Part shown: one piece after another, positions 9,410 through 61,549 of the stretch
Layout: each line of letters starts with the position of its first letter
Numbering within the stretch: position 1 is the stretch's first letter
From: Rhytidiadelphus loreus
Taxonomy: Eukaryota > Streptophyta > Bryopsida > Hypnales > Hylocomiaceae
Reading direction: 5' to 3'
DNA: 64,000 nt
Assembly (NCBI GenBank): GCA_947034895.1
Contig: OX344762.1
Coordinates: 19,758,760-19,822,759, forward strand
Program-made: the position numbers and the translations under genes
The notes under the pieces: generated by a model
What the model was told of the DNA's origin: nothing
Databases searched by the model: none
Seen by the model: only the letters and a program-made list of their open reading frames with translations

Positions 9410-11074
9410 GTGCACGGGTCGTTACCCAGCTTCAAACTTGAAGCAGCCAGCCCCAGTGCCACTGCGGCTTCTCGGTTGAAGAAGCTTTGGGACTCTGAGC
9501 GCAGTGGCAAGATTCCATTCGGGAACGCCGTGAAATGGTCCTTCGTGCTCCTCAACATCGTGTGGTTCGCGTTTCTGATGATTTCCATTCTATACTCCAT
9601 TGGAAATAGCAATGGCAACTCCACTACGGCGATGTCGCTCGCCCAGCAAAGCGCCTGGTTGCGGCGATCCAACATTTGCGCGAAGCTGAATGTGCGTGAC
9701 GAGCTATGGGCGGGGGATTTGCGTGAATTTGAAGGCGCCTGGAACCGCCTGTGTTTCGGTGACGCTCGATCCCAGCGCCCGCGCATCGCGGCGTTTGTAA
9801 AGACTTGGCCGATGGATGGGAAGCCCGGCGGGATGGAGCATCACGCGAGCACCCTGTACCATGACTTGGCTCGCCGCGGCCACGAGATTCACGTCTTCAC
9901 CACTCGACCCAATGGGGAGAATATCACTCTTCACAACGAGAACAGTATCCACGTTCACATCGTTCGCTCGCCGAGTGAATCCGAGGTTGGGTACTCAGCC
10001 GAGGAGCTTTACTGGAAGACGTTTCTCGCATTGAACGCTTCCGGATCCCCTTTCGACGTTGTGCACACGGAAAGCTTTTCCCTTTCGCCAAGGAAAGCGA
10101 ACGGAATCTCCCCCACAGTCGCAACATGGCACGGCATTGCGGCGGAATGCATCCACAGCGACATCGCCATGGAGCGCCACCACATCCCCAAGGAGCCGCC
10201 CAGCGAGGAGCTTCAGCGGAACCTCGTCGGACGGCTGAAGAAGATCGTGGACGAGACGAAAACGTTCGAGAACTACGGTCATCACATCGCGATCAGCGAC
10301 TACGTCGCGGACGTGATGCGTACGATCTACGAGTTTCCCGTGGAGCACGTGCATACCATCTTCAACGGCGTCGACGACGCGTTTCACCCGAACTCCAACC
10401 AAGGCGCGGCGTTTCGGCGCAAGTACAACGTTCCCGTGGACGCGACCATGGTGTTCGGCGTCGCGGGACGGCTGGTGAAAGACAAAGGCCACCCGCTGCT
10501 CTTCGACGCGTTCGTGAACATTCTCGAGAGGCACAGCAACGTCTACCTGCTGGTCGCGGGGAGCGGCCCCTGGTTGAGTCGTTACGCGCGCCTGGCGCCA
10601 GGGAAGCCCAACGTGGTCGCCGTGGGTCCGTTACCACCAGATGAGCTTAATGGATTCTACAACTCCCTGGACGTGTTTCTGAACCCGACGTTGCGGTCGC
10701 AGGGACTGGACACGACGCTCATCGAGGCGCTCCAGTGCGGGAAGGCGCTGATGGCGACGCGATTCGCGAGCATCACGTGGAGTGTGATCATCGGGAAGCC
10801 ATTTGGGTTCACGTTTGCGCCGAATGTGGAAGCGATTACGGCGGCGTTGGAAAAAGCCATTGGCGACGGGAGGAAGAAGATGGGCGCGGACGCGGAGACG
10901 CGCGTGGAGTATGCGCGCATGATGTTCAAGGCGGCGACGATGGGCGCGGCGTATGAACGCCTTTTCCTGTGCTTGCGTGACGACGCGTTCTGTGTGTATC
11001 CGTTACCGACTGATCGGTGTCCAGATCGCGAGCCCCCGGTGAAGAATTCTCGTCCCACTGGGACAGTTTGGTAG
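9410..11074 (+). CDS. Family 4 glycosyltransferase, type II membrane protein (plant type)
   Basis: Predicted GT4 (GT-B fold) glycosyltransferase of the plant group 1 type, likely acting in the Golgi or ER on an unknown acceptor. The 554-codon frame has one hydrophobic segment at about residues 43-64 (WSFVLLNIVWFAFLMISILY), as in a type II anchor. It then shows IAAFVKTWPMDGKPGGMEHH (donor-site glycine loop), a central WHGIAAECIHSD, HHIAISD, FNGVDDAFHP, VFGVAGRLVKDKGHPLLFDA, LLVAGSGPW and SQGLDTTLIEALQCGKALMA. In that last motif the first Glu of the usual EX7E pair is Gln; from memory this is normal in the plant clade. The frame opens at GTG and has no ATG before residue 56, although the sequence before it looks coding. 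An upstream exon is therefore likely; a candidate acceptor (ttacccag) ends near 9428. It is far GC-richer than its flanks and carries no intron over 1.6 kb. Confidence 0.88.
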   Translation: MHGSLPSFKLEAASPSATAASRLKKLWDSERSGKIPFGNAVKWSFVLLNIVWFAFLMISILYSIGNSNGNSTTAMSLAQQSAWLRRSNICAKLNVRDELWAGDLREFEGAWNRLCFGDARSQRPRIAAFVKTWPMDGKPGGMEHHASTLYHDLARRGHEIHVFTTRPNGENITLHNENSIHVHIVRSPSESEVGYSAEELYWKTFLALNASGSPFDVVHTESFSLSPRKANGISPTVATWHGIAAECIHSDIAMERHHIPKEPPSEELQRNLVGRLKKIVDETKTFENYGHHIAISDYVADVMRTIYEFPVEHVHTIFNGVDDAFHPNSNQGAAFRRKYNVPVDATMVFGVAGRLVKDKGHPLLFDAFVNILERHSNVYLLVAGSGPWLSRYARLAPGKPNVVAVGPLPPDELNGFYNSLDVFLNPTLRSQGLDTTLIEALQCGKALMATRFASITWSVIIGKPFGFTFAPNVEAITAALEKAIGDGRKKMGADAETRVEYARMMFKAATMGAAYERLFLCLRDDAFCVYPLPTDRCPDREPPVKNSRPTGTVW

Positions 11075-34399: not shown

Positions 34400-35216
34400 C
34401 AAGCAGTGGTTCCATAAGTAATTGTTCTTCATTAGCTAAAAATTAGTATTTATATTTTACTTTTACAAACTTTACATGGATCAAAGAGCTCATACTTATT
34501 TTATTTTTACTTTAAATTTTGTTTTTGTATCTATTGTAGAAGGAGGAATATATCTAGGTATCTAGTTGTAGTGGCCAAAAACCAAGCATCAAGATTTGTT
34601 AGGAGGATGACTAAATACCCATGGACTTGTCAATAGGCCAAAAAAATTCAGCATATAAAAGGGAGTCTAGAAAGCATTGAAGTTTATCAAGGTATAAGGG
34701 CTTATTTGTTAATTTGAGACAAGTTGGGGTCTCATTTTAATACATTCTATATTTAGAATGAAATTAGTATTCAATAAATTGAGACTTTTGAATAAATTAA
34801 GACTTCAAAATGTTAGAATACCTTTTTATATATTTCTATAGTTCTACAAAAAGTAGCTCTAACCAACAATTTACTATTTCATTTCTTAATGTCAACATAC
34901 AATAGAACATGAAGTTATAAATTGAGACATTTCTTTAAATTGAGACTACCTTAAATCTTAAAAACTAATCCCCATACTTCTTACACCAAACTTTTTAAAT
35001 AAAATGCACTGCAACCAAATACAAATTGAAGGCACATGTAACTGTAATATATACAAGAGCAATAATAAGGGAAAAGTATATTCTATTAATAGCAATAAAA
35101 ATGTTACATAGCTGCCACGTCATGACAGAAACAATAAAAAAAAAACTGCAAACACTAAAATGTAAAACCACATTGAACATCACTTCTTAAAAAAAACCCA
35201 GCAATAGACCTACAAA
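34400..35216. other. AT-rich flank of the composite element
   Basis: An 'aaattgagac' motif recurs several times between 34740 and 34950. The left boundary of the large element should lie here or slightly to the right, but I could not find its terminal repeat. Confidence 0.3.
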
Positions 35217-38200
35217 CTATTCCTCGCCTTCCGCGGAAGACACTTCGTTCTCCGAATTAGAGTTAAAGGCCGCCAGGGATGATTTGATGATGTTCATTTG
35301 CATCTTGGGAATTGTAATTTTTGTAATAACTTGAGGTTGATCTTCAGCCCCCCTTCTTCCACGTGGCTTGAAAGCTGTCATGATGTAGTTCGTGTTGGAC
35401 CAGCATGCACTAGTAGAAAACAGTGTCACAGTCAACAAAAGCTAGCTGATCCTTTTGTTAACTGCAACACAATTTTCAAAAAATTGTATTGACTGCAACG
35501 CGAATTTCTGAAAACTGTGTTGCAGTCAACAAAAGGATCAGCTAGCTTTTGTTGACTGTGACACTATTTTCTACTAGTGATGGAGGGATTACACAATCCT
35601 CGTGCCACACATTCCCAGTTTTAGTGTCCCATCCAACATATGTATCCATATTGATGTGACGACTTGAAGCAGGTGTCCAATATTGGATTTGGATTAAATG
35701 AACATGACCGGGATTTGGATTTGGATTTGTAAGAGCCCTGGCAAGCCAAAATGGCTTTGGGTCGTCGTCAGCGGGGCGCACCGCAACAAAATAACCTGCA
35801 AACACATCACGATCAACACGAAATGAAGGACGTGGGCGGTCACGCCTACGTCCAATGAAGGGTGCATCCCGTGCAAACTCTTCACGTATTGTTCCATCCC
35901 TCTGCATTTGGTCTTCCGGTTCAATGGTGATCCTAGAAGCTAGCCAAAATCCATCTTGTAATGTCTCACGCACCTGTAGAGGGGCATCTAGGGCAGATCT
36001 CACACCTCTCCAGTAACTTTTTATGGGGTCAATCTTCCTCCTGAACTCTCCAGATCGGTCGTCGTTTGACATTGCACTCCAGTGTGCAATAAAACCATTC
36101 AAACCCTTTTTGATCTCAGGCAGTGCTTTCATATGTTGTGGAGGTAAAGGTAGCGGACTACCGCTTGGTACTAGGGGGCGCCTGTCTTCACTCTCCGACC
36201 ACAAGCGAATCCCTTTCTTGTGCAGTGGAAGCCAGTCCTTGTCTGTACAAAGATATTTGTACTCCATAATGGGCCAACCACTAGAATCCATGTGGAACTT
36301 GAATTGCTGGCCCGACGAATGACCTTCTAAGAAATCCCCACCTGTTCCCAAATACCCGTGCACAAATCTTTTGAAGTTAGGGACTTCCTCGATGAGATGA
36401 GGAATTACTAGGTGGGATTCACAATCCATGAAGGACTTCATGAGCCTTGGAAATGTCTAGTAGTCATTGGTCTTCAACATGTTGCTCCATCGACCGCACA
36501 AAGCATCAATGTCTTCATGTGTGTATCCAACTATAAGGAAGTTGATGTATATCTCACGGAAAATGCCTTTGAATACAAGTAGAGAGCAGAAAGCAAAAAC
36601 CCGTCGATTCTTATTGTCTCCCGATGCATTGTCCAATTGCAAAGTCAATATAGGCGGGAAGGGCTGAGCGGGGATAGGTTCCTGTGGAGGAACGAGGGAG
36701 TCTAAGCAAATTCCCTGTCCAACTAGCACTGCCTTGGTTAGCATGGATTGGTCACTGTCCTCAGAAAATAAGATTCGTGATGAATTTTTGGACGGTCCCT
36801 TGAGATCACGCAACAATCTGGCAATGAAGCCAATGGTGTGATTGGAGTCTGTTGGGAAAATGTCTAACCCATAGTGCGCATACCGAATGTCACCATGACC
36901 ATGAGCAATCATACCGGTCACAGCAATAGGCATTTTCATGAAAGAATCCGTCACTTTAGTCTTGTGAGAAAAGTGAGGAGAAGCAGTCTTGGAGTGATCC
37001 ATTTTATCATGGATGATGCAGAGCATCCTCTCAGGATACATCACGGAATACTCTCTATTTCCGTAATAGAGTTCCCGATGTGCCTTCTGCCCTGAAAGGT
37101 GTGTGGTCAGAATTCTCTTCCATTTGTCTTGCGCAGTAGATAGAGGAGTACAAGCGCCCTTCAATTGCCTATATGTATTGCACATACCACACCTCGAAAA
37201 AGTATCTCCTCGTGCCTTCGGAGCAAACTCAGGGAAAGACGCACGACGGATGTTACTCAATCCACTAGAAGAAATCGGTGACAAATTAAACGCAGCATTT
37301 GCCTCATTGATTTTTGGTAATTGATCACTCCAACGGAAGGCTGACGGCAATACCATTGCAGGGACTCTTTCCCCAGATGCTAAAGTTCTTGTCTTGTGGG
37401 GCATTGCTTCAACTTCACCTACAATCAACATTCGAAGTGTGGCAGTAGCTTGTACAGTTTGCGTGCGTGGTTTTTTCAACCCCAAATTCCCATGGGCTTT
37501 AGCTTGCATTCCAGATTTGGCCTTCTCTTTGTACCTGTAGAATGTAGCTTTCGAAATCCCACGTATTGTCCACCAAGTAGTGGGACACACTTCAAAGTTC
37601 TTCAAGGTAATCCAATCCTTCCCATCCTGGTCCTTGTGCATTTGTCGATGAACTTCAAGAAGGCACTTCTTGCGATTATACACACCATCGATTACATGTA
37701 GTTGAGAATGTATGGCTTGAATTTCTCGACGCGGAAACGGCTGCAAGCAATTCTTGGGGCAACATGGCTTTGTGGACACTTCAGTGATCGCGCGTGTTGT
37801 GAAAAGCGATTCTTTTTTGGGAGGAACGTCTACCTCTGACCTCGCACGAGAACTTTCATACGATCTAATTCCCACACGACCACGGCAGTTCAAAGCATTG
37901 ACAGCATTGTTATAAATGCTAGTTTGATCGTGGTCGTATAGACTAACACCATTCAAAAACACTCTTTTAATGTGCCAGGAGTGCATGGACCACATCCACC
38001 CCGATGGTACTTCATCCTCGCACAAGGACTCGGCAATCTGAATTGCCACACGGTCGTCACCAAGAGGTTCACCATCCATGTCAATGACGAGGTCCGCGTC
38101 AACGCTTCGACAAATCCCATTCGTGACGTCATCACCAGCATCGTTCCTCAAGGCGACGCACTTCGAGATCCAAGACGGACGAGGAATACCATCGCAAGGT

Positions 38201-38322
38201 GCGACACCATCAGGAAGAACAGGCACCAGAATGGTAAAGTCATCTGGACCATGGATGTCCATTCTACAATACAAAGAAGTTATCCATGTCAGAAGCAAGA
38301 GACAAATGATAAATGAAGTCAT
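35217..38322 (-). pseudogene. DUF7869-type transposase-like gene, interrupted
   Basis: Transposase-like gene of a putative mobile element. The main frame runs 38322-36457, then a TAG (36459-36457), then in the same frame 36454 to about 35580. There a hairpin element (35408-35579) interrupts it; on its far side the frame resumes and stops at 35219-35217. Visible: a Cys cluster (CCPKNCLQPF), an HTH-like GISKATFYRYKEKAKSG, a CGMCNTYRQLKGAC zinc-type cluster, MLCIIHDKMDHSKT (first Asp), GMIAHGHGD, LTLQLDNASGDNKNRRVFAF (second Asp), FLIVGYTHEDIDALCGRW and a basic tail near GRRG. This Asp/Asp/HED layout fits proteins annotated as DUF7869, thought to have an RNase H-like integrase fold; catalytic roles are my inference. 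The hydrophobic first 20 residues end in a likely splice acceptor (ttgtattgtag) before MDIHGPDD, so the true start is probably in an upstream exon. Confidence 0.72.
35408..35579. mobile_element. CACTA-type foldback MITE, 172 bp, with ATG target duplication
   Basis: It starts CACTAGTAGAAAA and ends with the inverse TTTTCTACTAGTG, typical of CACTA (En/Spm) ends. The whole element is a near-perfect palindrome with arms of about 65 bases. It is flanked by ATG at 35405-35407 and 35580-35582, the 3-bp duplication expected for this superfamily. It lies inside the 3' coding part of the DUF7869 gene. It carries no transposase, so it was moved by an enzyme from elsewhere. Confidence 0.92.
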
Positions 38323-38327
38323 ACAAC

Positions 38328-39393
38328 TTATTCTCGACCCGAAGGTAATAATGAATCAACAGAACTGACGGAATTCCGAACTACACAACGAGCATCTCAC
38401 AAAGGATCTCGAGCACACACTATAGATTGACAAGCAATATTCTCATCGATGCAAAGAGAATGTCATGATTACAACAAGGAAATATGAAATATAAATCCAA
38501 CAACGAATAAACCCTCACAGTCAATCTTCTTAAAATCGTCCACATTACCTGACAGACTAAAACCATCCCAACAGGCATATTAATACCAATGAACTCAAGG
38601 TACATTGACATAGTGAACACATAGCCGTCGAGGACCAGTCCATCTACATTTTACCTTCAAGTCGAAGGTAAGTCAAGGATCTAGTAAATTAAAATCAAGA
38701 CAGATACCTTCGACTCGACGAAAAGTCAAGAAACTAGTAAGTGAACATGAGATCACTCACCTACCTTCGACTCGAAGATAACTAGGTCATGGAATGTCTA
38801 CACTACAATTGTTAAACTGTTGGGAACACAAAGTTTCAACAATAATACTAACTGTGTTTGGTAAGGACTGACAACATTACTACTTGTATAGTGTAATTGG
38901 GTCATTCCAACATTATTACAAGTGTCGTACGGAAACAAAATTTAGAACTTTGAATTAAATAAAAGGAACTACACTAATTATCACCCAACAATATGTCAGT
39001 CTTAGTGCAGTTCAGATTCACTAATTACCCTCGACTCGTGGATAAACTGGTGTGTCCCTCAGCAAGTCGGTTGTTTCTTACACCAATTTTTATTTCAAAA
39101 AATTATCAGAATACGACAAATTCAAATGTATTTCTGTCAAGAGAACAGAAATGGGGGCAAATGAACAAGTAACTTCTGTATCTTGATACAATGACCTCAT
39201 GATTGCACCATAAAGTGAGCTAAAAAATATTCTACCTTTGACTCAAAGATAAATCACAATATGAAATGGAAGGCAAGTGATTTGAAATTTAGACAATACT
39301 GAATGATTAATATTTCAAATTAATCCTTATCTTTGACACAAAGGTAAATGTACGCAGTCCTCAGATACCTCTCTATCTTCGACTCGAAGATAA
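38328..39393. repeat. Cluster of eight 21-bp palindromes upstream of the transposase gene
   Basis: Copies at 38328, 38651, 38704, 38761, 39025, 39232, 39327 and 39373 (first base of each 21-mer). The consensus is left arm TTAYCYTCGA, one central C or G, right arm TCGARGRTAA. Copies differ mostly by transitions at the Y and R positions; 38704 and 39025 have damaged right arms. The first copy lies six bases beyond the start of the transposase frame, the rest in its upstream region. See also 43964-44576, 46030-46150, 47527-47783, 48939-49079, 49435-49455 and 51258-51278. Confidence 0.93.
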
Positions 39394-40260
39394 AGTATCC
39401 AACTCTACGGAGTCGCTCAGAATGATTCCCTAAATTTACGCTTTAATTTTCGGAGCATTGGATTTGGATTCTCAGAAAATGACTCTAATTACAATGAAAA
39501 CGGTTTCATGACCAAGATATCGATTGCGTGAACTTCTAACATGCGGTGACCTATCTGACTAGTTTAACATACTCAAATCAAGAAATATGGAATGGAGAGG
39601 GAAAACAGAAGGGACACTCACGCAGAGTCCATCGATATGAAATCAAATGCGGACTCAGAAACTCGTCAGCTCTCCGCAAAATCATAAGCACACACTTGGA
39701 AATGAATGCAAAACTTCCTACTAAAACTAAGAACTATATATTCAAAGCAGGAGCGACATGATACATGTTTGCACGAATTATTCTCAGCACGGCGGACCTC
39801 GTATGTGAGCAACGGAATGGGAACACTGGCAGCAATTGGGAAACAAATTGGAGAAGACTAGGCGGGGAACAAATGAGGCGGCAAAACCTGAAAATTCAAA
39901 TTGAGAGGACCCGTCAGAGAATATGTCAGTCATGAATTCATGGAAAAAGCGATAGTAGATGCCGCACTATTTTCTACTAGAAATGCGCGACTGCGCAATA
40001 GTTCGAGTGAATTAGGCAACGTGAGCTGGAAAGAGAATGTACAAGTCAAACCTGGCTTTTTTTGGAGCAAAATTTGTTGGGCATTCGCTTAATTCTTAGT
40101 GGTAAATGGAATTGCACGTTGGCAGAAAGTTTCTGAATTTGAAGCGATCTTTTTCAGGATTGCGGACAATATATTCTTTTGCATAAAATAGGGTTTCCAC
40201 CAATAAATGTTGAAAAAGAAAGATTCATTGGATCCTCTTGTAATACCTTGCACAGTCAAA
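39394..40260. other. Upstream region of the transposase arm
   Basis: Less AT-rich than neighbouring repeat DNA, with short frames at 39546-39761 and 39901-40092 that I do not recognise. Near 39964-39980 the string CACTATTTTCTACTAG matches the right end of the 35408-35579 hairpin except for its last two bases. An upstream exon of the transposase gene may lie here. Confidence 0.3.
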
Positions 40261-40322
40261 TAGGGTTTAGGGTTTACGGTTTGGTGTTTGGTGTTTGGTG
40301 TTTGGTGTTAGGGGTTAGGGTT
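40261..40322. repeat. Short degenerate telomere-like tract
   Basis: TAGGGTTTAGGGTTTACGG is followed by four TTTGGTG units and then TTAGGGGTTAGGGTTTTTT. Plant telomeres are TTTAGGG, so this is a short variant array within the composite element, between its left (-) and right (+) arms. Confidence 0.7.
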
Positions 40323-41070
40323 TTTTGTGATTAAATTTCTCCAAGTTTTAATTCTAAGACTTATTGAAACTTACAAGACTAAATACCTTATTCCGCCTAC
40401 GCATTCAAAGTGTATTCAATGAACATTGAAAAATAAAAACAATTTTGTTTATTCTCTTCATTGAGACCTAAACCAATATATTATAGAAGGAAAATGTAAA
40501 AGTTGAGGTTTGTTCTGAAATGTAGACCACAAAAATTCGCAAAATGAAGCCTTCTTTTATCTAAAGGTATAATTTTCTTTAAGTTTGTATTTTAAATAAA
40601 TACAACATCTATAACTAACTTTACAAACTTGTACAATAAATTAATTTTTTTTACTCATGAAACTTACTTAAGTGCATGCATGGGATACTTGACAATGATT
40701 TATTAAGTGTTTGAACCTCCCTGTCAACTTTGATTATTAATGAAAGATAAAAATAATTAGTTTAAGCGTACTATTGATCATAGTCAGTGGAAGTGACTAT
40801 GACTATGATTCATACTAGTACCTAATTCAAGGAAAGGTCAATCATGATTTATACATTGCAATGTCATAGGACAATAATGGTGCAACTTGATGCCAATTAA
40901 ACGTCAGACTAATAATGTCTTCCATAGACACAATGAATGATAGACAATCATATTAAAATAGTGGAAAAACAATTCTTATAAATATTTGTTTTGGAAATAA
41001 AAATAGTACAATTGTAATTGTAATGCCCCTAAACCCATTGCGTAAGGCAATATTGATAATCATTCATTCA
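40323..41070. other. AT-rich spacer
   Basis: No gene is visible. No copy of the 21-bp palindrome occurs between 39394 and 43963. Confidence 0.4.
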
Positions 41071-41310
41071 GACAATAGTAAGGCTTAAACAACAAAAATC
41101 ATGTCCAACAATTTTCTAAACCCCAAATCATTAATGCCATGGAAGTTGCGTGAAAAAAAAAATAGAAATAAATTAATAGTTACGATTTAGACAATAGTAT
41201 TAAGGCCTACAAAACAAAAACCATGCCATACAATTTCCTAAACCCCAAATCATTAATGCTATGGAATTTGCGTAGGACACAATCAACGGAAATAAATTAA
41301 TAGTTACGTG
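41071..41310. repeat. Direct tandem duplication, about 120-bp unit
   Basis: 'gacaatagta', 'tctaaaccccaaatcatt', 'aatgc(c/t)atggaa.ttgcgt' and 'aaataaattaatagttacg' occur in the same order twice, starting near 41071 and 41190. Confidence 0.8.
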
Positions 41311-41394
41311 CAAGTTGCAAATGTGTAGGAGGTGTAGGATGCATGGCCGTCTCAAATAAACTTAAAGCACTACTAATTTTTTTTCTTTGAGATT

Positions 41395-41990
41395 TTGCAT
41401 ACTGTGGATTGGAAAAGATGTTGTGCAAGTTGCAATTATTCCTAAACTAATTCACATAAATATGCAATTCATGATCATTTTAATGACCTTGTACTTGAAA
41501 CTAAAAAATAAGGCAAGAATCAGCCCTTGTTAATACGATGTACTTCAATAACCAAAAAAATATAAAGTCATGAACTTCATTTAAAAAAAAATGAGAAACA
41601 TGTAAGTTGTGCAAGTTCCAATTATTCCTAAACTCACGAATTCAAAAAAATATATAATTGGTGGTCACTTTGAATGGCTTACTCCGTGAAATGGAAAATT
41701 GGTGCATGAACCTTGCCCTGTACTTTAATGTCCAACGAGTTGTAATCTCATGAAATTGACGTAAAGAAAAATTGGAAACACGTTGTGCAAGTTCCAATTA
41801 TTCCTAAACTCACGAATTCAAAAAAATATATAATTGGTGGTCACTTTAAATAACCTTCTCCTCTAAACTATAAATTAGGACTATAATATTGGAAACCATT
41901 TACTTTAAATAATGTTCCAAAATATATAAAGTCATGAAATTCGTAAAACTTGCAAACGAGTAGGAGGTGTAGGATCCGTGGCCTTCCGAA
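41395..41990. repeat. Tandem repeat, about 180-bp unit, three copies
   Basis: 'ttgtgcaagtt(c/g)caatta' starts near 41421, 41607 and 41783, each time followed by 'ttcctaaact' and a shared tail ('aaaaaaatatataattggtg' in the last two). A 'gtaggaggtgtaggat' motif flanks the block near 41325 and 41959. Non-coding. Confidence 0.8.
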
Positions 41991-42413
41991 TTAAATTCAA
42001 AGTAACCACTGTCTACTAACTTTTTTGCTAGACGTGTTACATGAGGTGGACCTTTTGTAAGGTTTTAGGGGAGAAATAAGAATGTCTGTGTTTTTAATCA
42101 TTTTTAAAAGTTAGGAGTTGAGGTTTATTAGCATGTAGAATTTTGATTCTAGTTTAGTATGTATAATTAGGACAAAAATGTATGTATTCATCTTCGAAAT
42201 CAGGGATGGAAGGATGAATCTTCTACAATTTTTTGCTTCCAATGAATTTTCTTGATTTTTATAACTAGATGTCGTCACACGGTTTCAAAAAGAGTTTAGG
42301 GTTTCTATGGTGGCCAATCTAATGTTGAAAAATTAATATTAAGAACCCAAATCTGAATAACTTGTTTACAAACTTGCATCACTAATAATTCTGCATTTTT
42401 GAGTAACTTGGAT
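41991..42413. other. AT-rich spacer
   Basis: No gene or clear repeat is seen. Confidence 0.4.
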
Positions 42414-42765
42414 TTTTAACCTACATTATCTCCAAACTTGTATCATGAACTTGCATCCGAACCTGCATTGCGACCATCCATTCATAATCTGCATTCCGAA
42501 CTTCCATATTGAACTTCTATTTTGAACTTGCATCCCAAAGCAACATTTAGAAATAGTATCGAATTTAGAATTTGCATTCGTAACTTTGCATCCAAACTTG
42601 TTTTCCGAGCCTGATCCGGAACCTACATTCCAAACTTGCATTGGTGGTTCGGCAACGCACACCTGTGTCCCGAACCTAGAACCCGAACAAATGTCCCGAA
42701 CGTGTATCCAACCCCGAACCTCCGATCCCGAACCACATTTGGCGACTCGGCGAAGGTTTGGGGGT
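42414..42765. repeat. Degenerate short tandem repeat, 'aacttgcatcc' type
   Basis: Variants of 'gaacttgcatcc', 'gaacctgcattc' and 'cccgaacct' follow each other for about 350 bases and become GC-richer to the right. The repeats give the minus-strand reading frame its recurring FGMQ/FGCK/FGT pattern, so I do not call that frame a gene. Confidence 0.6.
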
Positions 42766-43560
42766 TCATCACCCTCCGCGACTCGCGGAAGCAATTCTCC
42801 CCGCTGTCCTGCACGTCGTCCCGAGTCCGGTGTTCTTCCCGCCGCTTGCATTTCTCCCCGCTGTTCCTCCCATCGCTCCCGTCGTTGCTTCGCGCATGCT
42901 GTCCCCGCGTGGTAATCCCCAAGCTGTCCGTCGGTAAGTGAACACAATGTTTTCTTGTGCATCGTGATCTTCCGTGTGCAGTTGTTTCGGGGTTGGGTTG
43001 GGTATGGGATGAGTTCGGGTGTTGTGCAAGGTGTCTGATTTGAGTGTTTTTGGCGGTGTTTTTGAGTTGCATTGCAGGAAGTTCTACTTGTCGAAGGCGC
43101 AGTTTGTTGAGGATTTAATGGCAATGATTGTGTGGTGGGTTCAAGTAATCCTGGGAGTTTTATCTTGAGTGTTCATTTGTATTTTGTGTGCATCTTCATC
43201 TGCGGTGTTTTGGAGTGTTCTTCTCAAGAGCATAATTCTCGGCAGACCTTCATAAATTCTCGGCAGACCACCACACACGTTAGGAAGCTTGCAATTTGTG
43301 ATTATCGGAAGCTGAAGAGCTCCGTGTTTTATTCTGTGAATTTTTGCGGCCGTTCAGTTCTTCATCTGGATTCTTCCTCAGTTTGAGGTTCTCGCAAGTC
43401 AGGTCGCCTCAGCTTAGACGAGGTTCGCAGAAGAATTTCCAGTGTTGGTGGAGGTAGACGGCGTTCTCGTGCTGCTCCAGGAAGTCCAGGTTTGTTTGTT
43501 TTCTTTCTCTTTTCCTTACCTCGTTTCCACATGTGCTTACTATGCCAAGCCAAAGCACTT
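42766..43560. other. CpG-rich segment, possible exons or promoter
   Basis: A GC- and CpG-rich block with possible splice signals: GTAAGT after 'tccgtcg' at about 42934, and 'gcattgcag' ending near 43078 before a TTCTACTTGTCGAAGG stretch. Two copies of 'ttctcggcagacc' lie at 43237-43270. Overlapping frames on both strands show no domain. It may be the promoter or 5' exons of the right arm of the composite element. Confidence 0.3.
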
Positions 43561-43963
43561 ATTGTTCATTTCTTCAGTACATTGTAGTTACATTCTAGTT
43601 TAGGGATTAGGGTACAATGAGACAGGGAGGTACTTGTTTGTAGAGGTGCTTGTGAAAATCAGCAACTCAATTTACTTATGCAGTCTGTTTATTCCTGTTT
43701 TCAGCTATGTTCATGTCTCTGGCTTAGGGTTTACAAGTGTATTGTTGGTGTATTTCACGCATTGCCAATTCATGTTTAAGGTTGAGCTGAATGTCTGCAA
43801 CCAAACAGACCTACAAGAATCCAATTGCACTATACATACATTTAGGTTCAGGGTATGCATTATTGTAGGTTCAGGGTTTAAGAGCTAGGGTTTACGCAGG
43901 AGACATTGAAGTTTTAAGTGAAGATCACATAATTGAAAACACAATGCTCGGAATGAATGTAAA
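43561..43963. other. Spacer upstream of the right arm
   Basis: Contains several TTTAGG/AGGGTTT-like motifs (43713-43900) resembling plant telo-boxes. No gene is supported. Confidence 0.3.
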
Positions 43964-44576
43964 TTATCCTTGACTCGAAGGTAAATTAGAGTCGAGGATA
44001 ATCATTTCATGGTGTATGATATGTATGATATGCCAATTCAACAGTCCAGTCTTCAAATCGATTACCCTCGAGTCGAAGATAAAAGACAGGCAATATAAAA
44101 CCCAGCAACAGACCTAGAATATCACAATAATTTTAACATTACCTTGCTCACCATCGGGTTTACGGCATTAAATAGAAGTAGAAATGCTCTTCTAAAATAG
44201 AAAATATTGAATGCAACAATTTTTAACATATAATATCATGCAATCAAGTTACCTTCAAGACGAAGATAACATGATAAAAACAAAAAATACAGAGGAAATG
44301 CCTCCACTATTAGTCGGTCAATAAATTCAAGTACTAAATTTTAATTAATGGGGAATGACAATTAAAATGCTAAACACCATAAATATATTTTGAGGTCATG
44401 AAATTCGTGAACACAAATGTAATAAACACGACATTAAAACATTACAATGATTGAGCAATTTATCTTCGCCTCGAAGATAATTCTGAAGTATCTAGTTACA
44501 TACCATATTGCCGCCGCCATTAGTAAGTGCTCCAAACATTCTATGCACAACTAAATTACCCTCGACTCGAAGATAA
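43964..44576. repeat. Cluster of five 21-bp palindromes plus one half-site before the NGQHS gene
   Basis: Copies start at 43964, 44062, 44249, 44460 and 44556. A right half-site (attagagtcgaggataa) directly follows the first, ending near 44001. The last copy ends 43 bases before the ATG of the large gene. Arms follow the consensus given for 38328-39393. Confidence 0.93.
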
Positions 44577-46029
44577 CTAACAGTGGCCCCTAATTCTGTA
44601 GACTTGACAACGCAACAATATGGTGGAAGGAGCAGATTATAACTACTCCAACACGCAGGCATTCATGGAACCATTTATAAATCCGCTTGGAGATGAGCCC
44701 TTCATTGAAGAAATGCCAGAGACATTTGGAGACCTTTGGCAGTTCAAGGAGCATGTAACCGCGTGGTCATTTGGCTTGAACCGGTTTCAAGACTTCGTCC
44801 ATCCACGGTACCGTGTCCAAAATCAGTTGGATTTCTTCCCATGGCATCTTCAAGAGAAGGTCACGAACATTGAATCCGCTCGCGAGAACTTCGTCGTCAT
44901 CGTGCTGCAGGAGGTACGCGAAGATGGCATAGACGGGGAGCACATTCACTCAATCGTAATGGATGTGAACGCAGGGAGGTTGAAGTTTGACATGGAGGAG
45001 TTGGAGTCATTTCTCCAAATTACAAAGTTAGACTACCTCATCAACACATTTAGAACTGCCAAATACATACCATGGACTGATGGAACCGCCAAAGTAAACT
45101 GCCGCCGGCTTCTCAACATTTGGAAATCCATGGACAAGCATGCTCAACAATATGTGAAGTCACGACCGCCTATAGGTAAAAAAATGAAAAAGAAGCAGAG
45201 GCCATCTCTTGAGGGGCAGCCTAGTGGGTTAGCTCCCCTATTGTCAGGCAGCACAGCCACCGGTCAGGGACAAGTTCGGTCAGAGCTGCGCAAACGTGCA
45301 GCGACTCAATCCGTTGACGCAACTGGAGCTGCCACAGTAACCGCTGCTGGAAGCTCAGGATCAGCTCTGACGAATGTTGCGTAGCCAAAGGAACCCATGA
45401 GTCCCAAGGATGACGCTGATAAGTTTGGCCGCATTCAGCGAGACTTATGGGCTATGCACAGAGGTTGCTACATTCTGGGTCAAGATCCGAAAGTCGTCGA
45501 TATAAAGCAGTGCATCCTAGCGAGAGACGACTATGTCATTCGTGGTATGGAGGACCGGATTTTAGAATCCGTGAAGCGCAACCTCATTGCGTTGGGCCAC
45601 ATTCGGGAGCGTCAACGATTGTGTCTGACTCAAGTGGACAAACGCAACAATCTCCTGAAGGAGCTGCCCAAGAAATGGGAGGAGATAAAGGATGGGAAGT
45701 TCATGATCATCAATGGTCAGCATAGTGTGCAAGCTTCTAAGGATTTGCAAAAAGAAAAGTGTTGTGAGCAACGTCGAGTTGAACTCAAGACTTGGGAAGC
45801 GTACATTGTGTGGACCCTTGATTCATCGAAATTGGTGAATATATCGGAGTTCTACAATTCGACAAATCACCTAGACCACGCCCAACCAACATGAAGGAGC
45901 CAAATCATAAGCTCCCGCAACGTCTGGATCAATTGCCTCCGACCGACTCTCTTTGCCAAAGAGCCGGTAAAGCGAAGAAATGCATCCGTTCTTAGCGAAG
46001 GGCAATGGAAGATATGTTTTCCTGCCCAT

Positions 46030-46150
46030 TTACCCTCGACTCGAAGGTAAATTTCTCAGTTCTACGAGCACTTCTATTGATTCATTCGTTTACTAGTTCG
46101 GCTTTCTATGAAATTGCGAATGAGTTGCATTATCTTCGAGTCGAAGATAA
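46030..46150. repeat. Two 21-bp palindromes inside intron 1 of the NGQHS gene
   Basis: Copies at 46030-46050 and 46130-46150, 79 bases apart, between the decayed donor at 46012 and the acceptor ending at 46194. The first contains TCGAAGGTAA, which looks like a 5' splice site (AAG/GTAA). Confidence 0.93.
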
Positions 46151-47526
46151 TTGCAGAAGTACTCTAAGCTCACAGACTGCCTTTTTTGCTGCAGAGTTTC
46201 ACTAATGCAGTGGTTAAACGATTCCAAAATATTAATCCCAAGAAGGAAGGCAAGAATGTAAAACATGCCGGAGATCTCAAGAGCGAGATCAAGATTATCA
46301 CCCTTCGTGATGATATTTGGAGGCTCTGGAAGGAGTTCCTCACCAAGTACCCCGAGGGCTATCTTGTCGAGCCTGTCACCCGGCATCTCTTTCGGGACTT
46401 GGATGACTTCAGTCGGAAGTCATTCTTCTTGAAGAGAGAGTTCTTCAAGCATTTGGGTCACTTCATGGACTGCAATCTCGAGACTTTTGCAAAGCACCTC
46501 CTCAATCTAACCGAAGATCGAAGGCTGAAGCACCCGAAGGTATCCGTCGGCAAGACAAAATATCTTGTCCCGGATAACCAAACAACGCAAGACTGGGTAG
46601 AGCGAAGAAAAAAGAAGAAAATCATCCATGAGGAGTTCATGACAATAAAACCCAATCTGAAACTGCGTGATGAAAACAACGACACAGACTTGACTGTCTG
46701 GAGGTCGTGGAAGAAGAGGCACAACTTCTCGTCGTCAATGTGGGACTTCCTCCTATCCTACCCAAAGCCGTCATACTTCAGTAAACGGCTTACAAACGAC
46801 GCTAAGTTGAAGTGGGCCAAGGATCTTGGCGAAAAGTTTGCAAACGAGGCAACGATGTTTGAGAGGTTTATGAAGTTCAAATATCGCCTCGAAAAACAAA
46901 CTGGCGGATTTGAGTTCAGGGGCTTGGACGCGAAGTCCAGAGCGCTAGTCACCACTGGAATGTACAATTACATTAGTCGGCGGCTTCGCCTCGCCATACT
47001 GGACGTCAGATACATGAGCAGGCCCGCCGTCCCTGATAACACGTCGAATTTGGATCCGTTCCTAGAGTACGTGGCTGGCAGTCTGGAGCCCCAAGTGATA
47101 GAGGCAAGTGTCTGGCTCTGGATTCTCGGCGGAGAAGAGGACTTCAACGCCGCATACAAGTTCGTGACGGTCGATATGCCGGACTTCGACATCGTGAAGT
47201 CCGTTTATATTGCATCCTGCGCGGAGCGATTGGACAGTGTGTCCAATCGGTTTAAAACCGCTCCTGACGTGCGTATGCTCTTCCTCTTTAAGAGAGGTGA
47301 TAGGCATGCCAACCGAGTGCGCGACAGAGTGAAGGCGGAATACCGTCCTGCCGAAATCCTATATTACCAGGAAAGTAGGTATAACAACGAGGCAAAGTGG
47401 AGGATATATGCCTACAAACTCCGAATGGAGTTCTACATCGAGATGCTCTAGTGCTTTGCAATTCCTGAGGAAAATGTCTTGGGTATTTTTGCTGGAGCAA
47501 AGATTGCGTTGGCGGCGAAGGTGCGT

Positions 47527-47783
47527 TTATCTTCGACTCGAAGATACTGAGTGACACCTTCTGATGCTAATCTCATTTAATTATTCTCATCTAAAGGCAA
47601 TCCTTTATCTTCATCTCGACCGTAATAGCTCTCATGAATCCTGCACCCTAAACTTCGTGTGTTGTTGTCTACTGGACTTGACTCTCCTGAGTTTCCCGAT
47701 AACTTGTATGAAAATGCTAATTGCGGTATTGCAGATCTTGTGCAATTTTGTAGGTCCGTAGTTTATCTTCATCTCGAAGATAA
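47527..47783. repeat. Three 21-bp palindromes inside intron 2 of the NGQHS gene
   Basis: Copies at 47527-47547, 47605-47625 and 47763-47783. The first begins only six bases after the donor (AAG/GTGCGT); the third ends 40 bases before the acceptor (ttttcag at 47823). The middle copy is the most diverged. Confidence 0.92.
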
Positions 47784-48938
47784 ATTCTGCAATCTAACAT
47801 TTGCGTGTTTACATGGTTTTCAGATGTTCGGGTCATACTATTATGGCCTGGTCGATACCGACATGGGTACGGTGCATCGTGCTATGACCAAATCAGCTGA
47901 GTACTTGGATTTGAATGATTTCCTGCATTCAAATTCACCGTACTCGGTCAAGTACTTGAGGCCTCTATACATCGAAGCGCCTGTACTCACATCTATTTCT
48001 CCACCCTCGGAAGAGGACCTTTAGTCTCCCATTATCAGTAGTGATGAGACTAATAGTGCAGCTGAGGAGGGGCGGAATGGAAGTGGTGACGAGGGGGATA
48101 AGTTAGGGAGTGGGCATGGCGGCGACTCACCTAGTTCAGAACCAACTGACTTATCCAGAGATTCGATGCCTCCGGTGGATGCTAGGGACGCGGGAAGAAA
48201 TGACGAGTCACCCCCTCAAGAACATAGGGTCTCTGACGTTGGCATCGGAGGCCTAGACGAGTATGGCACCAACGCCGATGCCATAGTGCGATGGGAAGCT
48301 CAACCTCGATTGGATGGTGAATTGCCCAACCGTGTGGTCGAAGATATCGAGATGGATACGGAGTTCCAAGAGCAGCAACGCCTGGAGCATTTGCGAGAGA
48401 GCCGCAAGTTGGAGAAGAAGTTTGCTTCGAAGACCTCTATAGGCGCCGAGGGTCAGAGTCGTCAGGGTCGCGAGGGTGCAAGAAAGTTGAAGTCGAAGGT
48501 CGAGCGTGTCGTGGAAAATCTCAACGATATCGACTTAGACACGCTCCCGCACTCGTCGGATTTCGATGACAGTGACAACGACGACGCAAACATTCCCAAA
48601 GTCCCTCCAACTCCCATCCCCGGAAAGATTCAGACCGGCTGGTGGCAGGCGATGGTGGAGAGGAAGGCAGCGAAGAGGATGGCAGTCCAAGAAGAGTTGA
48701 ACAAAAAGGACAAGCAGATAGCAGATGCTCTCCTCGCCAGCAAGGAATCAGAGGCCAAGAGCCAGGCCACAACGGAACAGCTAGAGGTCCTGGAAAAACA
48801 AATGCACGACTTCTTTGCATTTAAGGTATCCCAAACAGCTCCAGTTCCGAGCCTGCCACCCTCAAAGACTGCCAATATCCCCCCTCCCTCCACACCGGGT
48901 CTATCGTAGCAGGCCCGTGAACTGGTCTCCGGGATCAT

Positions 48939-49079
48939 GGATCCTCGACTCGAGGGTACTCCATCCGAGAATCCTCCACCTGCAAAGGCAGGTGATGGAC
49001 TCGATCCTGGGAATCGTCTTGTTCCCTCTCCGACATCAGCTGGTCAAGTTCCTGGGATTTATCCTTGAGTCGAGGATAA
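48939..49079. repeat. Two 21-bp palindromes inside coding exon 3
   Basis: Copies at 48939-48959 and 49059-49079. Both are read in the same codon register (CCT CGA CTC GAG and CCT TGA GTC GAG), within a Pro/Ser-rich stretch. In the second, TGA stands where the consensus gives CGA, so this stop is best explained by C-to-T change at a CpG. Confidence 0.9.
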
Positions 49080-49434
49080 ATCTGAAGTGGGACCTTCTGT
49101 GCCCCTAGATGAAAGGGTTGGTGATGCTTCCATGGATGCTGCATAGTGCACACCGTCCAAGCCGGAGATTGAAGACACGACTCCTGCTGGTATTGCCGAC
49201 CAGGAACAAGTCGACTATGGCGACTACGACGACTTCCTGCAGGACAATACTATCAACAGGGGGGACGAAATTCCTTCTGAAGCACCATCGCAGGATGGAA
49301 GAGATCAGCAGCCTGACGGCTCGGTGGAGGTATGCTCCCCTGATTTCATTATACTTTCTTAACCTCTGTACATTATCAGTGCATAGAGGTCACCTCTTCT
49401 TTGTCGATCCCGTAGTCTCCGCATTCTGATCTGA

Positions 49435-49455
49435 TTATCTTCGACTCGAGGGTAA
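49435..49455. repeat. 21-bp palindrome inside intron 3 of the NGQHS gene
   Basis: A copy with only small arm differences, between the donor at 49330 (GTATGC) and the acceptor ending at 49518. Confidence 0.92.
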
Positions 49456-49662
49456 AATTAACGGATGTGGGTGAGTCGCTCTTCTTGTCACTTATACTCT
49501 ATGCATTTTGCTTGACAGGACGGTCCTCTTTGATTGTTTGGCGTTGAAATCCTGATGAAGTCGTTTTCGCAATGCCCCGTGTAGACTAGTGTAGCATAGC
49601 AATCACTTGTGATGTTTTCCGGCCTCAAATGTGGGTGGCATCGTTGAAATGTATCTCTCTAA

Positions 49663-49684
49663 TATTTGTAAATAAATATGTATG
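49663..49684 (+). terminator. Putative 3' processing signal of the NGQHS gene
   Basis: ATTTGTAAATAAATATGTAT combines a TGTAA upstream element and an AATAAA signal as in plant 3' ends. The identical 20-mer recurs after the neighbouring gene at 50813. It is 130 bases after the final stop. Confidence 0.6.
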
Positions 49685-49745
49685 CGATTCAGTTTCCATA
49701 CGCGTCAATCTAATTGCATTTTCCTGACAATGTTATGTTGCTCAG

Positions 49746-50731
49746 CCAATCATTCCTAGAAGTTTGCACCGCCCGATGGCAATGAAAGCTTTTCCTAAGG
49801 GGAGCAAACAGTCGATTAGTGGATTTCAATGTTCCTTCCCATTGTCTGGCTCACCTGATTCTGCATTCAAACAGGTAACTCCATTTCTATGTTGTCTTGA
49901 TTTAATCAGGTAGGATTTGAGGGAATCGGAGAACTCGTGCCGCGGAATGTCTCGCCCGTAGTGCCTGACCGGAGGAAGTGGTTGAATATAGTGTTCGACC
50001 TAAATGGAATCTTGTGCCATTGCGAGCCCAGATCATACTCTAAAAGATTTAAGCAGTATAGTGTCGAACAAAATAATCTCTGTCACTTGAACCCCACCCT
50101 CGTAAGACCCAAGGCGGTATTCACCAGGCAAAATCTGTGCGACTTCCTACATGAGGTCTCGGAGATCACGGCGAGGGTCGTTGTCTGGTCGTCCATGAAG
50201 CACTCCACTACGGAGATGGTAGTGGAGCACCTATTCAAGGGGATCAGGGCCCCCTTCAAAGTTCTGGGTCAGGACCATTGCAGAAAGATTGAGACCATCT
50301 GGGGGACTTTCTTCCACTTCGATAAGAAGCCGGTCTTCCTGAAGGTCCTGGCCGAGCAGGTATTCACGATGGTGGGTGGGGATGACGCCTTCACCAAAGA
50401 CAACACCCTTCTCATCGACGACTCTCCCGAAAAGAGTGTCTGCAATGAGAAGGGGAATGCCATATTCCTTCGCTCCTAGCGTCATAGTCATCGGCTGGAC
50501 AACTTCCTCATGGGGGAACTTCTGCCGTGGCTCGGGCGTCTGGAAATGGAGTGTGAACCCGGTCGCCTGCGGGAGTATGTGCAGGTCAACCGGTTAGGGG
50601 AAAGGCCGTTGGCCTATGTATCCGAGTATGTCCAAGGCATTGTCTCGGCAATGAGAGATTCCGCACAGAATCTTGGCTCGCGTTTCGAAACTTCTTGGGT
50701 TCGATGTAGTTATAGAGCCCGATGGACATAG
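49746..50731 (+). pseudogene. FCP1/NLI-type HAD domain protein of the composite element
   Basis: Predicted HAD-fold protein related to CTD phosphatases. Exons 49746-49874 (ATG 49776) and 49910-50731 join in frame over an unusually short 35-base intron. Motifs: LNIVFDLNGILCHC (motif I, nucleophile Asp; the usual second Asp is Asn), VVWSSMKHSTTE (motif II) and TLLIDDSPEKSVCN (motif III, DD), then FLMGELLPWL. An in-frame TAG at 50477-50479 splits it, and the coding pattern continues to TAG at 50729, then TAG at 50741 and TAA at 50756. DLNG in place of DLD/DLDE is, from memory, common in one plant subfamily. It suggests reduced catalysis or a binding role. It is followed by the same 3' signal as the upstream gene. 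The job in the element is unknown; a link to RNA polymerase II or to nuclear envelope control is only an inference from the family. Confidence 0.7.
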
Positions 50732-50812
50732 GCCTTAGACTAGTCTTCTGCCCCGTAATCCGAACACTGCACATTTTGTAATTTGTGATTGTATATTCTG
50801 TACATTTGTATC

Positions 50813-50834
50813 ATTTGTAAATAAATATGTATCC
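50813..50834 (+). terminator. Putative 3' processing signal of the HAD gene
   Basis: The same ATTTGTAAATAAATATGTAT as at 49663, 82 bases after the first possible final stop. Confidence 0.6.
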
Positions 50835-50959
50835 AGTTCGGAATTTACATTAAAAAGTTGCGCGTTTCTGCCGTCTTGGATTTGAGTTCATGTCGTTTGG
50901 ATTGGGCCTTTTGGGGGGAGAATGTATAGGAAACTTGTGTAATTTCTATTGTCTTGCAG

Positions 50960-51883
50960 GTGGGAGCTCAGAATGTCAGAGACTCGCCCAAGAGGCTGAG
51001 GATGACAAGGAGCCTCCTCTCTGGATTGGAAAAGTCGCTCTCGATGTCGTCCGAATCGGAATCGGAATCCAAATCTCATGGAGGGACGTTCATGCCGTCA
51101 GTGTTCTCTGGCCCTTTCATGATGCGCACGGTCGAGGACGCTACTTCTGCAGCCATTGACTTCTCAAAGGGGGACGTGGAGGACGGCGCCGTGGACAGCC
51201 CTCCCAGTCGAGGACCGGGGAGGACCCCCGTTTGTTCCCCGTCCCCGTTGAAGCGCGCATCCTCGAATCGAGGATGCTCGTTCTCCCCAACACCGCAGAA
51301 TGAGGCGGGGATGAGTCGGAAACTCCATCTTCCCGTTCACGGGGGCACTCAAGATCCTCCACTTGACGATCCTATTTTCCCAGAGCTCGACCACCCAAGT
51401 GTCTCCGTCACAACCACGAAGATGACGTCATTCCTGGGAGGGTATACAAAGAGTGACGAAGTGGGTCTTCCAAAGGCGGCTCATTTGCCTCGCCTCAAGG
51501 GTATTCGGCCAAGCCCTTCACTATCTGGAGGAGGTAGGCGGTCACCCTCAACCGACTCCCTATTCCGCCAAAGGATTATAAGAGACCAAAGGTGATCTCT
51601 GGACACCAAATCAACTAGATCTGGACTCCCGTACATAAGCAATGTGAAGTCAATGCTCCCAAGGCTGTGTCCTCATGGGTCAAAATCTTTGTCCACTTCA
51701 GAGGTTCCACGAAGCACCCTCAAGTTGAAGCGAAAGGAGTGCGACTCTCAAAGTGTGGGCTTCTCCGATGCGATGGACGGTGGAAGTGGGCCCCATTATC
51801 ACTCTCGACGCAAGGATATATTTAGAGGGTTGGCAAAGCTGAAAGCGTTAGAGGCAGCTAAGAGCAATTGTACAAGCAAATAG
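50960..51883 (+). pseudogene. Ser/Pro-rich basic protein of the composite element (exon)
   Basis: A coding exon opens after a good acceptor (ttgtcttgcag, ending 50959) and runs 212 codons to TGA (51593-51595). It then continues in the same frame to TAG at 51881-51883, about 307 codons in all. The product is disordered and rich in Ser, Pro, Arg and Lys, with KRLRM and LKLKRKE basic clusters that could serve as nuclear signals. No domain is recognised. A 21-bp palindrome lies in frame at 51258. The TGA follows AGG, so an ancestral CGA (CpG) is plausible. It could be a separate gene, with a first exon near ATG 50890, or a 3' exon of the HAD gene. 'ctataaataacatggtaaat' near 51941 may be its 3' end signal. 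Confidence 0.55.
51258..51278. repeat. 21-bp palindrome inside the Ser/Pro-rich exon
   Basis: A perfectly symmetric variant (gcatcctcga, centre a, tcgaggatgc) with altered outer bases. It is read in frame as part of an SSNRGC stretch. It is the rightmost copy found. Confidence 0.85.
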
Positions 51884-52597
51884 CGATTCTTTGGGATGCT
51901 GTAATATTTTTGGAAGCCACAGGCTTCAAAGTGTCCTTTACTATAAATAACATGGTAAATAAAAAATACAAAACGAAGACTAACGATAGTTGAGAGCTTG
52001 CATGAATAGTGAGCGTCTAATTTTGTAGTTCATTTAGATTCATATGACAGTCAGATTTACTTTGTCCATTGGATGAAGCTACTTAGTGTTACAGTTAACA
52101 TTAGTGAATGTAAATTCATCCGCATTTTCATCTTCTACTCAATTCTTCACACTGAACATGTGAATGTTTTACATCATGTCCATCCTTGTAATTGTGCATT
52201 GTTTCTTTTCCGGGGGGGGCAAGTATGTCAAGGAATTACAAGTATTTTCTATCACACTAGAGGTTGATTTCACACTTGGTAAGAACACGCTACCACGGCA
52301 TTAGGTTTAGGCAGGTCACGACCATCACCCGCCCTATTGTAAAAATGTCTTTAATTACTAATTTCTATTTTCTATCGAGTTTGACAAGTATTACTACATT
52401 AGAACTTCACACCTTTATTTTCAAAGTCTCAAAATTGTCAAATTGTCTCAAATTAATGAATAAGGCCTTGTATTGGGATTTATTGTCTAATTCTCTCAAG
52501 TTGCAAGCAAAAGAGATTGTTAAAAGAAAAAACAATCATCGTGAATCTATTGATTCAAGTTTAAAATGTGTATAAGATTACTATCACAGAACAAGGC
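51884..52597. other. Right flank of the composite element
   Basis: AT-rich sequence starting just after the last element gene. The right boundary of the element should lie here; no terminal repeat matching the left flank was found by eye. Confidence 0.3.
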
Positions 52598-60486: not shown

Positions 60487-61549
60487 AGGAGTTGAATTTA
60501 AAAGTTTACACCTTTCTCATACATATGGGTTGGGTTACAAAAAGATTGCTTCCAAATTAGGACTTTCAAAGTTACAAGTGAGAGATATTGTAAAGAGAAG
60601 CAATGAGCGGGGAAGGGGGAAATGTCAAGAATGCGTTAAGAATGCTCCACACTCTAGACGCCCTACAAAACTGACAAAATCAAAGAGGGAGAGGGTTTTA
60701 GAAGTAGCCGATGAGAATTCAAGATTGAATCTTTGAGAGATCACGAATACCACAAATGTTAGGCTCAGTTGTTCTAGTGTTGACAAAATCTTGAGTGAGG
60801 CTAGTTTCCGTCTCAAGATTCCAAGGAAGAAGCCATTTTGGACACTTAGATAGAAGCAAAAGCACAAGGAGTTTGCACAAAGGCAATGCTAATAGGATCC
60901 TCAACAACGGGGACGAGTGGTATTCATCGACGAAGTGACCATTGAGTATAATCCTTCCCGAGTTGGGAAGAAAGTGTGTGTGTGACTTGGCAAGGAGTTG
61001 TGTGAGAAGAATTTGAAGCCCAATTTCAAGTTAGAAAGGACTAAAGTTGGGGTTTTTGCATGCATAGCATGGGATTAATTTTGATGAAGAAGATAATAGA
61101 GATAGAATACAAAAGTCCTCGTGATAGATTGGGCATCAATGCTTTGCAATATGCAAGTGAGATTCATAAACCTCATAATTATTATTCCTTTTATTCAGGG
61201 TCTATGCGATAACCCTAATCATATTTACCTTACAGCACATGGAGAAACTTGGCATTATGATCCTCAAAACAAGAAACTTCAAGAGGAATGTGACTATGTC
61301 CAATTTTCTTGGCCATCCAACTCATCAGATTTCAATCCAATTGAAAATTTGTGGTTGCTTCTCAAACAACAACTTAGAAAATGTTTCTTAGAGAATAAGC
61401 ATCATCCACATAGTACTCAAGAGTTTTTTGTTGTTACAAAGAAAAAATGGGAAGAAATTGATCAAGGCACTATTGACGACTTCATAGATTCAATGCCTTG
61501 TAAGATTCAATCTATAATCGATGTTGATGGAGGTTATACTAAGTGGTAG
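60487..61549 (+). pseudogene. Decayed Tc1/mariner-like transposase
   Basis: Remnant of a Tc1-type transposase. The N-terminal helix-turn-helix region (GYKKIASKLGLSKLQVRDIV) with a following KSKRERVLE stretch is readable at 60530-60736. A middle part with VVFIDEVTIEYNP (first catalytic Asp region) lies near 60920. The C-terminal part at 61121-61549 has the typical WPSNSSDFNPIENLWLLLKQ block, containing the last catalytic Asp. Several stops (near 60735, 60850, 60890, 60985 and 61075) separate the parts, and the second catalytic region is not recognisable. No inverted repeats could be assigned with confidence. Confidence 0.8.

Follow-up and report, generated by a model that had tools for sequence, protein, structure and literature searches.

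We examined a 64,000-nucleotide stretch of the moss Rhytidiadelphus loreus genome (contig OX344762.1, positions 19,758,760 to 19,822,759 of the forward strand; hereafter the window) and found that a 17,774-bp DNA transposon within it carries a family of dispersed 21-bp palindromes. On balance, we favor the interpretation that these palindromes, about 20 per element, serve as binding sites dispersed within the element, and that their likeliest binder is the element-encoded NGQHS protein. The palindromes lie 5′ of element genes and in introns, are conserved in place between subfamilies, and differ between transposon families that each encode an NGQHS relative.

The palindrome consensus, TTAYCYTCGANTCGARGRTAA (motif M1), occurred exactly at 5 sites in the window. 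Allowing up to one, two, three, or four mismatches raised the count to 13, 16, 20, and 23 sites, respectively. All 23 fell within positions 38328-51277, inside the element (34696-52469), and the rest of the window contained none at ≤4 mismatches. Markov simulation, run 200 times on the element, yielded on average 0.005 sites at ≤3 mismatches and never more than 1 per run. The host genome (407,041,205 bases) contained 805 exact M1 copies and 0 matches to the reversed control; in a viral collection, the pattern appeared in one stretch. The palindromes are real. The first-pass annotation had described at least 22 palindromes, all sharing both arms and confined to the element. That number is reached at ≤4 mismatches but not at ≤3, the sharing of both arms was overstated, as only the 5 exact sites have the full consensus, and the confinement is true of the window but not of the genome. 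The sites, none assigned a strand, are:

38328..38348, 2 mismatches; directly 5′ of the DUF7869 start
38651..38671, 1 mismatch
38704..38724, 3 mismatches
38761..38781, 1 mismatch
39025..39045, 1 mismatch
39232..39252, 3 mismatches
39327..39347, 3 mismatches
39373..39393, 1 mismatch
43964..43984, 1 mismatch; overlapped by a 4-mismatch site at 43981-44001
44062..44082, exact
44249..44269, 2 mismatches
44460..44480, 1 mismatch
44556..44576, exact; directly 5′ of the NGQHS gene
46030..46050, exact; near the 5′ end of putative intron 1
46130..46150, exact; putative intron 1
47527..47547, 1 mismatch; start of putative intron 2 (also from copy B, described below)
47605..47625, 4 mismatches
47763..47783, 2 mismatches
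48939..48959, 3 mismatches
49059..49079, 1 mismatch
49435..49455, exact
51257..51277, 4 mismatches; symmetry perfect, outer bases differ

The element and two of its genes are:

34696..52469, no strand, DNA transposon holding all window palindromes, 17,774 bp; ends defined against the copies at C1:55.3 Mb and C4:21.3 Mb
34692..34695, no strand, left target-site duplication, GTAT; from copy comparison
52470..52473, no strand, right target-site duplication, GTAT; from copy comparison
34696..34722, plus strand, left terminal inverted repeat, ~27 bp; from copy comparison
52443..52469, minus strand, right terminal inverted repeat, ~27 bp; from copy comparison
36457..38322, minus strand, DUF7869 gene (putative transposase), N-terminal 621 amino acids; PF25273, E 4.6e-29
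44620..46011, plus strand, NGQHS gene exon 1, predicted N-terminal beta domain and ParB-CTPase-like domain; stop-interrupted in the window copy, exon end deduced from copy B
46195..47520, plus strand, NGQHS gene exon 2, predicted DNA-methyltransferase-like fold; splice sites by eye, end approximate

We determined where the palindromes sit relative to these genes. Across 30 DUF7869 loci, including that of the window (1.5-kb flanks, ≤3 mismatches), 238 sites lay 5′ of the gene, while the matched coding stretch and the 3′ side contained 0. An intact-looking copy on C1 (copy B; 18.07 kb, 22 M1 sites at ≤3 mismatches) encodes DUF7869 (987 codons) on one strand; the other strand carries the NGQHS gene exons, a second large frame, and further frames. 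Judged by splice sites placed by eye, its remaining palindromes lie 5′ of the NGQHS gene and in its introns, with one site, at 14690, falling in an open frame that may or may not be exonic. At two loci (L001 and L002), the palindromes form arrays with periods of ~40 and ~44 bp.

The palindromes are conserved in place between subfamilies. Ten target sequences were supplied for alignment, and the matches came from L036 and L038. Of 272 aligned palindrome columns, 249 were identical (91.5%) versus 4956 of 6517 flanking columns (76.0%). These figures exclude gapped columns, among them those of one copy B site that is absent from L036 and of two that are merged into one in L038. Among 18 close copies the contrast was weaker, with a pairwise difference of 0.098 for the palindromes versus 0.171. 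Some orthologous palindromes of L036 and L038 were approximately the reverse complements of those in copy B, with the center base and outer Y/R positions flipped, as if by inversion in situ or by conversion from a different site.

The motif is also family-specific. In a more distant DUF7869 family, two copies had no M1 sites upstream at ≤5 mismatches; the same upstream regions contained repeated copies of a second motif, M2 (TTYAGCTCGANTCGAGCTRAA), or near forms of it. A third DUF7869 type had one palindrome in the 1 kb upstream, from which we predicted the pattern M3 (TTCAGGTNGNNNCNACCTGAA) and then found it at sister copies. Exact copies of M2 and M3 numbered 155 and 232 in the genome, with 0 for either reversed control. 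Genome places were listed for the first 50 matches to each of the three motifs. Within 18 kb on the 5′ side of 17 distant-type DUF7869 copies (C1 and C2, listed range), M2 was present at 6, M3 at 5, and both together at 0. Among the matches listed, neither M2 nor M3 occurred at any of 22 M1-type DUF7869 copies, and no motif site was inside a DUF7869 gene or within 18 kb on its 3′ side. Over 187,739 bases of M1-type loci, a search at ≤2 mismatches recovered 265 M1 sites and 0 M2 or M3 sites. All three motifs approximate the frame TT-nnnn-TCG-NNN-CGA-nnnn-AA, which is exact in M1 and M2. M2 and M3 are one base apart per half-site, and M1 is further off; TTATCG, a fourth code built on this frame, had only 5 copies.

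The candidate reader is encoded by a gene that is divergently transcribed from DUF7869 and is present in the M1, M2, and M3 types (for M2 and M3, a single element each was read, in part). In the predicted structure of the NGQHS protein, a ParB-CTPase fold precedes a DNA-methyltransferase fold of the DNA amino-methyltransferase (beta-class) kind. Searches of whole sequences found the catalytic [DNS]PP[YWF] motif (DPPY) in 0 of 29 relatives, and DxR stands at the probable place of this motif in 27 of them. For an M2 element at C1:17.48 Mb, we predicted the position of the NGQHS gene from the palindrome spacing; the 900 bases there contained a 268-residue frame with INGQHSVEAS that is 32-37% identical to the copy B protein and is followed by an M2 palindrome. 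An M3 element also encodes a relative, which shares 57% identity with the M2 protein over 167 residues. With M2 and M3 closer to each other in motif than either is to M1, these identities are consistent with co-divergence of motif and protein. The run-on tails of some protein relatives spell the palindrome (LSS-RR, YPR-ED, or YRR-DD), as seen for 12 of 37 NGQHS relatives and 8 of 48 exon-2 relatives; these relatives are gene predictions that often extend past the exon, the patterns were defined once the tails were known, and the palindromes were read from protein, not DNA, leaving third codon positions unseen. The two M1 tail patterns had 0 matches in the 120 DUF7869 relatives listed. One NGQHS relative (P0146) is labeled as an uncultured Synechococcales cyanobacterium, for which contamination by plant or alga seems likely.

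The symmetry of the sites is near-perfect, and the first-pass annotation had described variation at the same mirrored positions. Over 452 sites, this was borne out for position pairs 6/16 (concordant at 308 sites, 231 expected) and 2/20 (427, 411 expected), but not for 4/18, which was at chance (247, 243 expected). Among 212 distinct sequences, pairs 1/21, 2/20, and 6/16 were above expectation and 4/18 was marginal (129 versus 119 expected, a value reached by 81 of 2000 permutations). Such symmetry, together with the partial covariation and the near-reverse-complement relationship of some orthologous sites, might indicate that the palindromes function as hairpins, formed in RNA or by DNA extrusion, or constitute a mobile hairpin unit. 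However, besides the chance-level pairing at 4/18, the ratio of wobbles to clashes on the sense strand was biased one way on one side of the element (69:31) and the opposite way on the other (4:12), and the alignments revealed in-place substitutions with no 21-bp insertions bearing duplications. Because a mixture of subfamilies can produce covariation, the covariation itself does not separate a hairpin from a dimer site. A strict hairpin is disfavored, and we regard hairpin explanations as a whole as highly improbable.

The sites could instead serve a different protein. En/Spm elements have subterminal motifs, and the DUF7869 transposase might similarly bind the palindromes, here internally, for synapsis or autoregulation. 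In support, the palindromes adjoin the gene in 30 of 30 DUF7869 loci and the motif type tracks the transposase family. However, the element ends are avoided, with the distance to a terminus being 3.6 kb for the first site and 1.2 kb for the last (≤4 mismatches), and the ~100 bases at each end lack a half-site by eye, making this explanation unlikely. Somewhat less likely is self-marking, in which the ParB-methyltransferase protein would methylate the palindromes, or TCGA, on adenine or cytosine. This would suit the predicted amino-methyltransferase fold, and the same was proposed for a 1104-amino-acid ParB-like and methyltransferase protein of the Ectocarpus Sola1 element (PMC12477816), but the lack of DPPY, with DxR in its probable place, argues against it, as does the absence of TCGA from 42 of the 50 listed M3 sites. 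The promoter-like location 5′ of genes could also reflect binding by a host transcription or silencing factor rather than an element protein. As three families in one genome have three different arms, a family-encoded reader fits better than a single host reader, and we consider the host-factor explanation improbable, a little more so than self-marking.

Several observations weigh against binding of family-specific sites by the NGQHS protein. Neither M2 nor M3 was present, among the matches listed, at 6 of the 17 distant-type DUF7869 copies, and one of five checkable distant-type copies has two M1 sites within 18 kb, although these adjoin an M1-type NGQHS match and by position belong to a neighboring M1 element. 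TCG and CGA were both present in only 30 of the 50 listed M3 sites. Of the 50 listed M1 sites, 22 were more than 15 kb from any listed element gene. In the comparison of close copies, the mean conservation of the palindromes was matched by 21.5% of the 1129 control windows, and sites in alignment gaps were left uncounted in the conservation between subfamilies. The partial arm covariation at 6/16 and 2/20 goes beyond what two independent half-sites predict. L037 still uses M1 although its protein is only 35-53% identical, so divergence of the motif is not strictly coupled to that of the protein.

Other points concern the protein itself, which was not recognized by Pfam or NCBIfam. A GxxR-type motif is present in ParB proteins, and NGQHS occupies the probable place of this motif in all 24 relatives aligned, as judged by the strand-loop-helix arrangement and the GxxR pattern rather than by residue alignment; an arginine is missing there. 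The P-motif arginine is described as required for nucleotide binding in ParB (PMC12704722). Because NGQHS probably replaces the GxxR-type motif, CTP (cytidine triphosphate)-driven clamping is doubtful. We identified no ParB helix-turn-helix in the model, in which residues 431-453 and 479-490 have a predicted local distance difference test score (pLDDT) <50; the exon ends there.

In the favored model, the NGQHS protein would bind as a dimer to two half-sites, TTnnnnTCG, with the four variable bases serving as a family-specific address through which each family could recognize its own copies. By coating, or loading onto, the 5′ flanks and introns, the protein may control the activity of the whole element. 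The effect could be self-regulation or escape from host silencing, as for VANC on VANDAL transposons, or long-range control similar to that by KorB. Since DPPY has been lost, binding without modification is favored. Of the functions that the first-pass annotation had suggested, the NGQHS protein as a candidate binder gains support, while centromere-like, end-like, and hairpin roles fit less well. More tentatively, we suggest that this transposon lineage may possess its own ParB-parS-like system, in which a ParB-fold protein fused to a catalytically dead methyltransferase would read a family-specific 4-base address within a fixed, palindromic 21-bp frame, allowing many diverged families of one genome to mark their own copies and no others.

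The target-site duplication was 4 bp in all three copies compared (GTAT in the window, TAGT and ATTT in the other two). Sola elements have been reported in moss, and a 4-bp target-site duplication is a Sola feature (PMC10741241). Based on these points and the size of the element, membership in the Sola superfamily is a good guess. The DUF7869 frame is shortened in the window copy and has 987 amino acids in several others; among the DUF7869 relatives listed, those with names come from two mosses, Physcomitrium patens and Ceratodon purpureus. An insertion of ~176 bp (35406-35581) with inverted ends (ACTAGTAGAAAA...) interrupts the 3′ portion of the window DUF7869 gene; it resembles a miniature inverted-repeat transposable element and is missing from both other copies compared. 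An internal repeat at 41185-41877 has several matches to copy B at offsets of ~176 bp, and its repeat number seems to vary between copies. The element also contains a frame (49901-50479) with an NLI-interacting-factor-like (C-terminal domain phosphatase) domain (PF03031, E 2.4e-8), which could be cargo or part of the element's own gene set. Elsewhere in the window are a 557-amino-acid open frame (9401-11074) that is glycosyltransferase-like by eye and has G+C far above its surroundings, and a frame (61106-61549) that by eye resembles the end of a Tc1/mariner-type transposase (FNPIENLW).

It is an open question how transposons that share a genome recognize their own copies and avoid the regulators of others, for which VANC/VANDAL is the main worked example. 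VANDALs are Mutator-type elements, and Mutator target-site duplications are 9 bp; the element described here has 4 bp, and its candidate reader has ParB and methyltransferase folds. In Arabidopsis VANDALs, the reader VANC is encoded by the element, and its target motifs are short repeats in introns and upstream regions that differ between families and often form tandem arrays (PMC5735166, PMC10398659). Family-specific motifs in noncoding element regions are likewise what we find, apart from the copy B site in an unsettled frame. In contrast, the VANC21 motif is described as 9 bases in one orientation, while the motif here is a 21-bp palindrome.

Dispersed palindromic sites with a ParB-CTPase-fold reader, here a candidate, also characterize the ParB/parS and KorB/OB systems (PMC11790492, PMC12704722). 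KorB, a ParB-fold protein that acts on such sites, controls genes at a distance (PMC11790492) and, according to a title in the reference list of that paper, has 12 sites on RK2. The system described here differs in having NGQHS at the probable place of the GxxR-type motif in the 24 aligned relatives and in residing on a chromosomal eukaryotic transposon. Sola1-1_Ec32 of Ectocarpus resembles the moss element in being a giant DNA transposon with an opposite-strand accessory gene for a ParB-like and DNA-methyltransferase protein; this protein has been proposed to bind the element that encodes it and to modify it (PMC12477816). The account of that protein reports no binding sites, and "palindrom" does not appear in the main text of the paper; in the moss element, candidate sites are identified and the methyltransferase-like domain lacks DPPY. 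The genome described here has three families with three addresses in a common frame, and a linked candidate reader of prokaryotic fold. These addresses supply a concrete target sequence for the proposed self-binding of ParB-methyltransferase accessory proteins, making the idea testable.

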